Source: an uncultured Ardenticatenia bacterium (GTDB lineage Bacteria > Chloroflexota > Anaerolineae > 4572-78 > NAK82). Taken from it: 64,000 nucleotides of DNA. Made by a program: the position numbers and the translations under genes. The notes below the pieces were generated by a model. It made no database searches and was not told the DNA's origin. It saw nothing but the letters and a program-made list of their open reading frames with translations. Position 1 is the stretch's first letter; each line of letters opens with the position of its first letter. Below are positions 40,356-44,067 of this stretch, piece after piece. The stretch covers positions 143,257 through 207,256 of the forward strand of contig CAKZLO010000034.1 in the NCBI GenBank assembly GCA_937127125.1. The letters run 5' to 3'.

Positions 40356-42155
40356 TCACACACTTCCTCTACTAGCGACAGCCTCCCGCACCATTGCAAT
40401 CAGCTCATCTATTGGTTTAGGTCCGAGGTCCTGTCCGCTGCGCAAACGGACGGCAACAGCGCCTGCCTGTACTTCTCTGTCGCCTACTACCAACATATAG
40501 GGGATCTTCTGCTCTTGGGCTTTGCGAATTTTGTTAGCCATACGGTCGCTGCCATCGTCCACCAGGGCGCGCAGGCCAGCAGCTTTCATTTGCGCGGCAA
40601 CCTCGCGGGCATACGTAACATGTCGGTCGGCAATGGGGATAAGAATCGCCTGAACGGGTGCCAGCCAGACGGGAAATGCTCCACCATAGTGCTCAATCAG
40701 GATGCCAAAGAAGCGTTCCATACTGCCCAAAAGTGCACGATGCACCATATACGGGCGGTGTGGTTGCCCGTCTTCGCCCATGTAGGTCAAGTCAAAGCGC
40801 TCCGGCAGATTAAAGTCGAACTGAATGGTGGTCAGCTGCCACTCACGATTGATCGCATCCTTTACCTTTAGGTCGATCTTAGGACCGTAGAAAGCGCCGC
40901 CGCCTTCGTCTATCTCGTAGGGAATGCCAGTGCGCTTGAGAGCCTCTTCCAGTGCTCCCTCGGCAGCACGCCACTGCTGTACATCACCCACTGCCTTACG
41001 TTCCCCCGGACGGGTGCTCAAATAGGCGCTGAACTCATCAAAGCCGAAAGAGCGCAGCAGGTGGAGTGAAAAGTTGAGCACAAAGTCGATTTCCGAGGGC
41101 ATTTGATCGGGCCGGCAAAAGTGGTGTGCATCATCTTGGGTGAACCCGCGCACGCGCAGCAACCCATGTAGCACGCCACTCCGCTCGTAACGGTACACGG
41201 TACCCCACTCGGCGAAACGCAAAGGCAGATCCCGATAGCTGCGTAATGCACTCTTGTAGATAAGGATGTGGAACGGGCAATTCATCGGTTTCAGGTAATA
41301 TTGTTGCCCTTCGATCTCCATAGGCGCGTACATATTCTCACGATAGTAGCCCAGATGCCCACTCGTTTCCCAGAGAGCACTGCGGCCGATATGGGGGGAG
41401 TAGACCAGCTCATATCCATTTGCCAAGTGTTCACGTTTACAAAAGTCTTCGACTAGATGACGGATCAGAGCCCCTTTTGGATGCCACAGGATCAACCCGC
41501 CTCCTAGCTGGTCCGGGTGAATGCTGAATAGGTCCAGCTGGGTCCCCAGACGACGGTGATCACGCTTCTCCGCTTCAGCTAGGCGCTTGAGATAATCCTC
41601 CAGGTCTTCAGCTGTCTCCCAAGCGGTGCCATAAATGCGCTGCAACATCGGGTTGCGCTCGTCGCCGCGCCAGTAGGCACCAGCAATTCTCAGCAGCTTG
41701 ACGCCATCTGGGTTGATTTGCCCCGTGCTATCCAGGTGGGGACCGCGGCATAGGTCTTCGAAATTGTCGTGGCGATAAGTGGTCAGCGTCGGCTGAGCTT
41801 CACCAGCGGACGACTCGCCATCCTCATCCAGACTGCCAGACACCAATCCCTCTATCAGCTCTAACTTATAGGGTTGATCGGCGAAAATCCGACATGCCTC
41901 CTCGGCTGTGACCTCACGGCGCATGAACTTATGATCAGCGGCAATGATCTCGCGCATACGTTTCTCAATGGCCACTAGGTCATCCGGAGTCAGTGACCGA
42001 GGGAGGTCAAAGTCATAGTAGAAGCCATCCTCAATTGCGGGTCCGATGGCCAGCTTGCCTCCCGGGAACATCTCCAAAACTGCCTGAGCCATCACATGAG
42101 CTGCCGAGTGGCGCAGGCGATACAAGTGACTTTCTGCGTAGTCAGAACGACTCAT
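40356..42155 (-). CDS. thrS: Threonyl-tRNA synthetase lacking the TGS domain
   Basis: 599 residues. The protein begins directly at the editing domain (RHSAAHVMAQAV with HxxxH near residues 16-20, and CRGPH near 136), so the N-terminal TGS domain of about 60 residues in most ThrRS is missing. The class II core is complete: motif 2 in FAEWGTVYRYERSG, the zinc-site Cys in MNCPFHILIYK, and motif 3 in PVWLAPVQ. The HGP-type anticodon domain ends the protein. The ATG at 42155 has AGGAG 7 bases before it, and no in-frame start precedes it. It follows aroF by 86 bases and may be on the same attenuated transcript. Confidence 0.92.
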   Translation of the reverse strand: MSRSDYAESHLYRLRHSAAHVMAQAVLEMFPGGKLAIGPAIEDGFYYDFDLPRSLTPDDLVAIEKRMREIIAADHKFMRREVTAEEACRIFADQPYKLELIEGLVSGSLDEDGESSAGEAQPTLTTYRHDNFEDLCRGPHLDSTGQINPDGVKLLRIAGAYWRGDERNPMLQRIYGTAWETAEDLEDYLKRLAEAEKRDHRRLGTQLDLFSIHPDQLGGGLILWHPKGALIRHLVEDFCKREHLANGYELVYSPHIGRSALWETSGHLGYYRENMYAPMEIEGQQYYLKPMNCPFHILIYKSALRSYRDLPLRFAEWGTVYRYERSGVLHGLLRVRGFTQDDAHHFCRPDQMPSEIDFVLNFSLHLLRSFGFDEFSAYLSTRPGERKAVGDVQQWRAAEGALEEALKRTGIPYEIDEGGGAFYGPKIDLKVKDAINREWQLTTIQFDFNLPERFDLTYMGEDGQPHRPYMVHRALLGSMERFFGILIEHYGGAFPVWLAPVQAILIPIADRHVTYAREVAAQMKAAGLRALVDDGSDRMANKIRKAQEQKIPYMLVVGDREVQAGAVAVRLRSGQDLGPKPIDELIAMVREAVASRGSV

Positions 42156-42241: not shown

Positions 42242-43255
42242 TTATATAGTCCGTTCGACCGCTTCGGCCACGCGCTCCAGTTGTTTCATCAGTTCACTGA
42301 AACGTGTCGCTCGCAAAGACTGACCACCGTCCGAGAGGGCTTTCTCCGGGTGTGGATGCACTTCAATGATCAGACCATCTGCACCGGCCGCTATTGAGGC
42401 GCGCGAGACAGCACTGACCAGATTCCACTTGCCAGTGGCATGGCTGGGGTCCACAATGATGGGCAAGTGGGTTAACTCCTTAATCACTGGTACAGCATTA
42501 ATGTCCAACGTGTTGCGAGTGTAAGTCTCAAATGTACGAATACCTCGTTCGCACAGAATCACTCTCCGGTTGCCGTGCGATAGGATGTACTCAGCGCTCA
42601 TCAACAGCTCCTCAATGGTGGACATCATACCCCGCTTGAGCAGCACAGGGAACCCTGCCTCGCCGATAGCATGTAACAACGCATAGTTCTGCATATTGCG
42701 TGTGCCGATCTGAAGCACGTCGGCATATTTGGCGACCAATGGTACCTGGTCCGGTGACATCACTTCGGTTACGATGGGCAGGCCGGTGAGCTCTCTGGCT
42801 TCGGCTAAATAAACAAGTGCCTCCTCACCTAGTCCCTGAAAACTATAGGGAGAAGTACGTGGCTTGAAAGCACCACCGCGGAGCATGTGGGCGCCTGCTT
42901 CTTTGACAAGATGGGCTGTTTCCAGGATCTGTTCGCGACTTTCCACAGCGCATGGACCGGCTATGATGGTGAGACGTTTACCGCCCACAGGATGGCCAGC
43001 AATTTCAATAACGGTATCGTGCGGCTGGAAATCGCGGCTGGCCAGCTTGAATGGCCGCAAGATGGGCACAATGCGCTCTACACCTTGCATACGCGCCAAG
43101 CTGTCTTTGTCCACTGGCCGCTCATCGCCAATAACCCCAATGATAGTTCGCTCCTCGCCTCGCGACAGGTGGGTGCGAAACCCCAATTCGTTCACACGCG
43201 CAACAACATTATCGATCTCTTCTTGGGTCGCGCCCATGCGCATTACGATGATCAT
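42242..43255 (-). CDS. aroF: 3-deoxy-7-phosphoheptulonate (DAHP) synthase
   Basis: A 337-residue DAHP synthase of the type I-beta class, joining PEP and erythrose 4-phosphate as the first step of aromatic synthesis. The N-terminal ferredoxin-like regulatory domain covers residues 1-65. The barrel shows [51 protein letters not shown] and [17 protein letters not shown]. The ferredoxin-like domain gives Tyr/Phe feedback in the Thermotoga enzyme. Its ATG overlaps the chorismate mutase stop by 4 bases, and the two share a leader with an amino-acid attenuator. Confidence 0.94.
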
Positions 43256-43704
43256 TTTCTCACCTCTTTATCGTCACTCTCGGCCGCTGGTTCAAGCGCA
43301 ACATTGTCCATATCTCGCCACAGACGCATCGCTTTGCCCTCTTCCAACCAGTCGGGGCGCAAATGTACCGCTCCGTGCAGGTAGACATGGTGAATTTCTT
43401 CAGGTCGTTTCTCTGTATTCCAGTGTATCATGACCCGGATACAGTAGCGCAGTCCGTGGGGTACGTCCATCTCATGGGCGCACAACATCGCCACATGGTT
43501 CCACCCCAACTCACGAGCTGCCACTGCTGGAAATTCTGCTGTGAGGTCAGAGCTGGTAGTAAAGAACACGCTGGCAATGTCATCTATGACGATCCCATTG
43601 CGCTCAATTATCTGTGTTAGCAACTCACGCGTCGCTGTTAGGATAGCTTCACGAGTATTCCCCTCACATGTGGTGGCACCTCGTACGCCTCGACAAGCTA
43701 CCAT
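43252..43704 (-). CDS. aroH: Chorismate mutase, AroH type
   Basis: A 150-residue AroH-fold chorismate mutase, chorismate to prephenate for Phe and Tyr. The start [21 protein letters not shown] is diagnostic, with the active-site Arg near residue 7. [18 protein letters not shown] and [16 protein letters not shown] add the second Arg and neighbours. The C-terminal 25 residues beyond the family core are acidic. GGGAGAG and GAGG lie before the ATG at 43704. It is the first structural gene after the leader peptide and terminator at 43789-43964, so both aromatic genes are likely regulated by Tyr/Phe supply. Confidence 0.92.
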
Positions 43705-43788: not shown

Positions 43789-43823
43789 AAAACATAAAGG
43801 CGTGGATTCTGCTGCTCCACGCC
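43789..43823 (-). terminator. Attenuator terminator (arms 3:4) before aroH
   Basis: On the minus strand GGCGTGGA (43823-43816) pairs perfectly with TCCACGCC (43806-43799) round a 9-base loop. It is followed by UUUAUGUUUU (43798-43789). No minus-strand gene lies upstream that needs a terminator, so it acts inside the aroH-aroF leader. The 5' arm with part of the loop can instead pair with arm 2 (43866-43882). Confidence 0.75.
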
Positions 43824-43859
43824 CTCAAATTCTCTTCCCAGTGAAAAACGGGTTTGATG

Positions 43860-43964
43860 CTATTTGGGTGGAAGCAGCACCTGAGCACTCACTCGGCAAA
43901 AGTGGTAATAGGTGCTGCTATACCCTTCGGTGATTCGTAGTGTCCATATTGTGAGAACACGCAT
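43860..43964 (-). CDS. Aromatic leader peptide of the aroH-aroF attenuator (34 aa)
   Basis: A 34-codon frame starting at ATG 43964 with GGAG 8 bases upstream (GGAGTGCACATATG). The peptide reads MRVLTIWTLR, then ITEGYSSTYYHF, then CRVSAQVLLPPK. Tyr15, Tyr19, Tyr20, His21 and Phe22 are close together, and Trp7 is present. Codons 16-19 hold arm 1 of the attenuator and the stop codon lies just beyond arm 2. A ribosome waiting at Tyr19-Phe22 would cover arm 1 and free arm 2 to pair with arm 3. A ribosome reaching the stop would cover arm 2 and let the terminator form. This is the logic of the pheA and trp leaders of enteric bacteria. Confidence 0.75.
   Translation of the reverse strand: MRVLTIWTLRITEGYSSTYYHFCRVSAQVLLPPK
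43866..43918 (-). promoter_or_regulatory. Attenuator arms 1 and 2 (pause and antiterminator)
   Basis: Arm 1 GCAGCACCT (43918-43910) and arm 2 AGGTGCTGC (43882-43874) are perfect complements. Arm 2 extended to AGGTGCTGCTTCCACC can pair with GTGGAGCAGCA of the terminator (11 pairs with one bulged U), which destroys the terminator. All three pairings are mutually exclusive in the right order. Confidence 0.75.
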
Positions 43965-44038
43965 ATGTGCACTCCACGAGGGAATCCCGAGCGATCAACA
44001 ACCCAGTAATAAGGTCGCACGTTGGCTAAACTATTTCT

Positions 44039-44067
44039 TATATAGCATATGAGTTGTCGAATGTCAA
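44039..44067 (-). promoter_or_regulatory. Promoter of the leader-aroH-aroF operon
   Basis: Minus strand TTGACA (44067-44062), a 17-base spacer and TATATA (44044-44039) preceded by TGC. The start point would be near 44032, about 68 bases before the leader peptide and 330 bases before aroH. Confidence 0.65.

Follow-up and report, generated by a model that had tools for sequence, protein, structure and literature searches.

A trp-type attenuator with a Tyr/Phe-rich leader peptide predicted upstream of aroH-aroF in Chloroflexota

The stop codon of the E. coli trp leader peptide is situated between arms 1 and 2 of the leader RNA. In the trp leaders of E. coli, Streptomyces and Corynebacterium (PMC1262725), the ribosome is positioned by Trp codons, and its position decides between antiterminator and terminator. 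Leaders with other aromatic residues have also been described. E. coli pheL, upstream of pheA, and pheM, upstream of pheST, are Phe-rich leaders with alternative terminator and antiterminator structures, and the charging of tRNA-Phe is the signal (PMC11802643). In C. glutamicum, as summarized in the sources available, the aroR leader peptide, which contains Phe-Tyr-Phe, precedes the DAHP synthase gene aroF, and stalling under Phe limitation leads to read-through (Neshat et al. 2014, via PMC11802643; PMC4046766). The uORFC-13-1 motif, a predicted Phe-sensing upstream frame with at least one Phe codon, followed by a terminator 5′ of aroF, is represented by 24 predicted examples, found only in Acholeplasma and environmental DNA (PMC8632094).

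Ribosome-mediated attenuators have been reported mainly from Proteobacteria and Actinobacteria, and later from some Firmicutes (PMC2965389, PMC9413887); before its own Firmicutes case, the first of these papers (2010) knew of leader-peptide systems in Proteobacteria and Actinobacteria only. For the Chloroflexi, among other groups, the genomes available were considered too few for a judgement (PMC4833913). Searches of the openly accessible literature turned up no such attenuator from Chloroflexota.

The sequence analysed here, referred to as the window, is a stretch of 64,000 nucleotides from an uncultured Ardenticatenia bacterium. On its minus strand, between the divergent gyrB and aroH genes, direct reading reveals a leader region with the following features.

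44039..44067, minus strand: sigma-70-type promoter, TTGACA (44067-44062), spacer of 17, TATATA (44044-44039)
43972..43975, minus strand: Shine-Dalgarno-like GGAG, 7 bases 5′ of the leader ATG at 43964
43860..43964, minus strand: leader peptide frame of 34 codons, MRVLTIWTLRITEGYSSTYYHFCRVSAQVLLPPK, with the stop codon TAG at 43862-43860
43899..43922, minus strand: putative sensing codons Y15, Y19, Y20, (H21) and F22, from reading and from the position of the cluster in relatives
43911..43919, minus strand: arm 1, AGCAGCACC, the protector arm in the window genome, overlapping the sensing codons
about 43865..43881, minus strand: arm 2, GGTGCTGCTTCCACCCA (beginning GGTGCTGCT), within the leader frame and directly 5′ of its stop codon
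43807..43827, minus strand: arm 3, TGAGGGCGTGGAGCAGCAGAA, the 5′ side of the terminator plus its loop, from folds and alignment with the genus-mate
43823-43816, minus strand: core of arm 3, GGCGTGGA, read directly
43795..43806, minus strand: arm 4, TCCACGCCTTTA, the 3′ side of the terminator, kept in the genus-mate
43806-43799, minus strand: core of arm 4, TCCACGCC, read directly
43789..43798, minus strand: U-rich tail, TTTATGTTTT, read directly
43252..43704, minus strand: aroH, monofunctional chorismate mutase (TIGR01796)
42242..43255, minus strand: aroF, DAHP synthase (TIGR01361/PRK08673), overlapping aroH by 4 bases
40356..42155, minus strand: thrS, 86 bases past aroF

All of the elements claimed in an earlier note on this DNA are present, with some of its coordinates off, by 0 to 2 bases overall. 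The promoter and the 34-codon frame with its Tyr and Tyr-Tyr-His-Phe codons were read as claimed, and the positions of the cores of arms 3 and 4 were exact. The ribosome site stands 7 bases from the ATG, not 8; arm 1 had been placed at 43918-43910, one base away, and arm 2 at 43882-43866. The identification of the genes behind the leader as chorismate mutase and DAHP synthase is borne out by the family matches listed above.

The arrangement would work like that of E. coli pheL and pheM, and most closely like that of C. glutamicum aroR-aroF. With pheL and pheM it shares a Phe-rich leader, alternative hairpins and tRNA charging as the presumed signal; those systems belong to Proteobacteria and govern other target genes, whereas the Chloroflexota leaders have arm 2 within the frame and lack a conserved protector arm. 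The trp leader relies on the same choice by ribosome position, with Trp codons; the Chloroflexota frame runs through arm 2, unlike that of E. coli. With aroR-aroF, likened here by its description, the common points are a leader peptide 5′ of a DAHP synthase gene and stalling that leads to read-through. That system is actinobacterial, is led by aroF rather than aroH, and has three aromatic codons as described, whereas most Chloroflexota leaders have five to nine per 10 codons. Like the Chloroflexota leaders, uORFC-13-1 combines a predicted upstream frame with a terminator 5′ of a DAHP synthase gene. The earlier note had considered a Tyr/Phe-sensing case on aroH-aroF to be new in such a genome; as far as the literature searched shows, that is upheld for the lineage and the aroH-led operon, but a Phe/Tyr attenuator on a DAHP synthase gene has precedents in C. 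glutamicum and Acholeplasma.

The terminator is a GC hairpin (43827-43795, -18.4 kcal/mol) with a U-rich tail extending to 43789; its U tract is interrupted (UUUAUGUUUU), and it was not detected by a generic terminator scan of the window. Arms 2 and 3 form a duplex of -22.2 kcal/mol, equalled by 8 of 200 shuffles, and the pairing claimed for them was recovered, with about 13 pairs in the nascent-RNA fold. Arm 1 is, as had been claimed, a perfect complement of arm 2 in the window, and their duplex (-20.7) was equalled by one of 300 shuffles. The aromatic density of the frame, 4 per 10 codons, is unremarkable alone and among the weakest in the family; even 5 per 10 codons is attained by shuffles in about 9% of class loci. 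The case for an attenuator from the window by itself is thus good but not proven, and for that reason relatives were collected.

The leader RNA of 253 nt folds 4.15 standard deviations below its shuffles (z -4.15), with none of 200 equally stable. Such structure would also be expected if a riboswitch or T-box sensed aromatic amino acids and the frame were incidental, and T-boxes control aromatic genes transcriptionally in Firmicutes, so that this explanation has a precedent. No Rfam riboswitch or T-box matched the window at gathering score, and none matched in 19 related loci, apart from an unrelated SAM riboswitch; the candidate was rejected on this absence. Moreover, the RNA outside the arms is poorly conserved even within the genus, whereas different families have all retained the aromatic codons. 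Sensing by the RNA itself is considered extremely unlikely. The SAM riboswitch just mentioned (SAM-I-IV, RF01725; L141:1100-1207, minus strand) lies about 2 kb 3′ of the aroH of its locus and is unrelated to the leader.

Of 396 genomes from the window's class, 268 were found to have aroH, as were 158 of 301 in the phylum sample. About 150 regions upstream of aroH were read, and the main set comprised 126 loci, 112 from the class and 14 from four further families (f71, f81, f107 and f110). The earlier note had called for a search of related genomes for a small Tyr/Phe-rich frame, and one with at least five aromatic residues (F/Y/W) per 10 codons, ending shortly 5′ of aroH, was found at 115 of the 126 loci: 101 of 112 in the class (shuffles 8.6%) and 14 of 14 in the four families (shuffles 5.4%), the latter figure being a description and no blind test, since those families were chosen after their leaders had been seen. 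At a threshold of at least six per 10 codons, the counts were 93 of 112 (shuffles 0.8%) and 10 of 14 (shuffles 1.4%), as against 4 of 112 and 0 of 14 on the opposite strand. No frame at this threshold was found at the 27 loci from other families of the phylum. Four class members with aroH (L062, L104, L092 and L011) have no recognisable aromatic leader; in L062, aroH-tyrA-aroA stands without an adjoining DAHP synthase gene.

Examples of the leaders are MSTYNGHYYYFQHKAQVLPPPE (genus-mate), ...AFYFWGYFYFW... and MAQRVQSFYRYFYYFTGPHMAWLLRTV. The clusters are made up of 412 Phe, 356 Tyr and 28 Trp residues, mostly the first two, so the sensor would be one of Phe plus Tyr. Every synonymous codon is used (TTT 327, TTC 85, TAT 193, TAC 163 and TGG 28), and this usage, together with the free exchange of Phe and Tyr, points to selection on the aromatic residue. 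In six loci of the family f21 type (L095, L096 and L152-L155), the leaders are mainly Tyr (FRYYYYPNCIDRSG) and their stop codon stands immediately 5′ of the putative arm 2; these are perhaps a Tyr-specialised variant with another geometry.

Stalling could in principle be brought about by the nascent aromatic peptide together with free ligand, as in TnaC, rather than by uncharged tRNA. The aromatic tract is always close 5′ of arm 2, and some subgroups have short motifs in common, e.g. WRGFxF, as an arrest peptide might. Across the family, however, no residues are fixed, Phe and Tyr interchange, and the length and spacing of the tract vary, unlike those of known arrest peptides. An arrest peptide is therefore judged very unlikely, and stalling on uncharged tRNA is preferred.

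The promoter and terminator recur with the frame. TTGACA, 17 bases and TA.... are found in 59 of 118 leader-bearing loci, whereas the opposite strand yields 4. In nearly all leader loci, aroH is preceded by an adjoining GC hairpin and U-rich tail, the terminators being of the type AGCGTGGAGC-loop-GCTCCACGCT. In the alignment with the genus-mate, the conserved blocks are the promoter (TTGACA-n17-TATATAAGAA), arm 2 together with the adjoining stop codon, and each of arms 3 and 4; the first half of the frame and the spacer have drifted, and arm 1 has been replaced.

Alternative pairings were also to be looked for in relatives, and the pairing of arms 2 and 3 surpasses both shuffled and swapped partners. 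Since arm 2 was chosen at each locus for pairing best with arm 3, the raw energies carry no weight as evidence, and only the comparisons with shuffles and swaps do. The mean z of the pairing is -2.3, and 49 of 119 loci rank within the best 1% when set against dinucleotide shuffles of themselves, where about one would be expected. On average, the pairing of arm 2 with the arm 3 of its own locus is favoured by about 4.4 kcal/mol over pairing with foreign terminators that share no 7-mer (Wilcoxon p about 4e-16 and 2e-17, values that are optimistic because related loci were counted separately). Arm 2 co-varies with the terminator, the effect being visible in families with unlike terminators, and there are 89 distinct shared cores, e.g. 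GCGGTCC with GGACCGC. It begins at a median of 14 nt (IQR 11-17) past the last aromatic codon in relatives, and 17-18 nt past it in the window. It is apparent that the leader elements are conserved and that arms 2, 3 and 4 vary together.

These results bear on a further explanation, that the frame encodes a small functional membrane peptide, or is a chance frame, and that the hairpin just ends a short upstream RNA. Strings of Phe and Tyr are hydrophobic, and the window frame alone is insignificant in its aromatic content; against this stand the covariation of the 2:3 and 3:4 pairings, the fixed geometry, the location 5′ of aroH operons and the low values of the opposite-strand and shuffle controls. 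The probability of this explanation is regarded as close to nil. The conservation in relatives argues that the attenuator is raised far above chance.

Arm 1 presents a different picture. Over 97 loci, its pairing with arm 2 was in the top 1% of shuffles in 7 and in the top 5% in 15. The enrichment being weak in both tests, a conserved 1:2 hairpin was rejected as a feature of the family, and arm 1 appears to be a trait of some lineages. The attenuator had been called complete, with four arms, and it is so in the window genome, but not in the family.

The switch was modelled by folding in two ways. When the complete leader of the window was folded to equilibrium, the terminator prevailed despite a stalled ribosome (P about 0.98), and P was below 0.5 on stalling in only 24% of loci (0% after segment shuffling). 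Since the terminator wins in most loci, the window included, the equilibrium fold was rejected as a model of the switch, which must act cotranscriptionally, before arm 4 is made. That the decision in trp attenuation is taken during transcription is generally accepted. A nascent model was also used, with a transcript containing arm 3 and lacking arm 4, masked by the ribosome to 12 nt past the start of the A-site codon. In the window, about 11.5 to 13 pairs between arms 2 and 3 were predicted for any A-site codon from Tyr15 to Ser26, none with the ribosome at the stop codon and 0.06 without a ribosome. The proposed geometry, in which a ribosome on Tyr or Phe codons frees arm 2 and one at the stop covers it, is thus reproduced by this model, with 12.7 pairs on the aromatic codons. 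Averaged over 116 loci, the model gave 11.0 pairs when the ribosome stood on aromatic codons, 0.1 when it had reached the stop and 6.3 without a ribosome, and in 66 of the 116 the antiterminator would form without translation. The modelled window would accordingly behave as a three-state switch like the trp leader; the other loci are mixed.

Actual translation of the leader, stalling, termination and a response to Tyr and Phe are what we infer from the sequences. Transcription would start near 44032, and a ribosome would begin to translate the leader frame. With Tyr-tRNA or Phe-tRNA in short supply, this ribosome would halt at Tyr15-Phe22, leaving arm 2 free to pair with arm 3 once that is made; arm 4 would then be partnerless, no terminator would form, and aroH-aroF would be transcribed. 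If the aromatic tRNAs were charged, the ribosome would pass through arm 2 to the stop codon and cover it, arms 3 and 4 would form the terminator, and transcription would end near 43789. Because the untranslated leader of the window is predicted to fold arm 1 with arm 2, its default would be termination too; in many relatives without arm 1, an untranslated leader would be read through. It is highly probable that this leader is a ribosome-mediated attenuator by which aroH-aroF, and probably thrS, respond to the charging of tRNA-Tyr and tRNA-Phe.

The order aroH-aroF-thrS is the same in the genus-mate; thrS is possibly cotranscribed with aroH-aroF, and it is probably among the targets. Operons behind the leader differ among relatives (aroH-aroF-thrS, aroH-pheA-...-aroF-aroF and aroH-aroF-tyrA-aroA). 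All of their genes but thrS serve Phe, Tyr or the common precursor, which fits the residues sensed. In L054, two DAHP synthase genes and a prephenate dehydratase gene follow aroH in one gene run (aroH-pheA-...-aroF-aroF).

A frame rich in Ile, Leu and Val was found 5′ of ilvB in the window's own genome (MKGSIIPVVCSIIILIVVLLIGSTPMLLGG) and in nine relatives (L185-L194). The own-genome leader (L188, G000:C74) lies about 0.25-0.35 kb 5′ of ilvB at 103713. A terminator of the type CCTCCCA..GGGAGG precedes ilvB in most of these genomes, and the leaders hold segments complementary to its 5′ arm, e.g. GGAGGCGTTTG with CAAACGCCTCC. The lineage thus appears to have a second attenuator, one for branched-chain amino acids. 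A search of the window's genome and close relatives revealed no similar leader 5′ of pheA, trpE, pheS, hisG or the aspartokinase gene.

Taken together, the comparative data suggest that two large groups within the Chloroflexota have a trp-type attenuator in common. Its mechanism would be that of classical attenuation; as far as the literature searched shows, the lineage, the breadth and the aroH-led target are new. It seems rather likely that attenuation by leader peptide is an old and general means of regulating amino-acid genes in much of the Chloroflexota (Phe/Tyr for aroH, Ile/Leu/Val for ilvB), with many of the aroH leaders acting in two states without a protector hairpin. More than 100 covarying examples on an operon at the entry to the pathway would add another phylum to those in which the mechanism occurs, and they offer a ready comparative set for the evolution of the arms. 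A short, unannotated leader frame can now be named, and the attenuator would explain how the Chloroflexota that carry it match the synthesis of aromatic amino acids to their supply.
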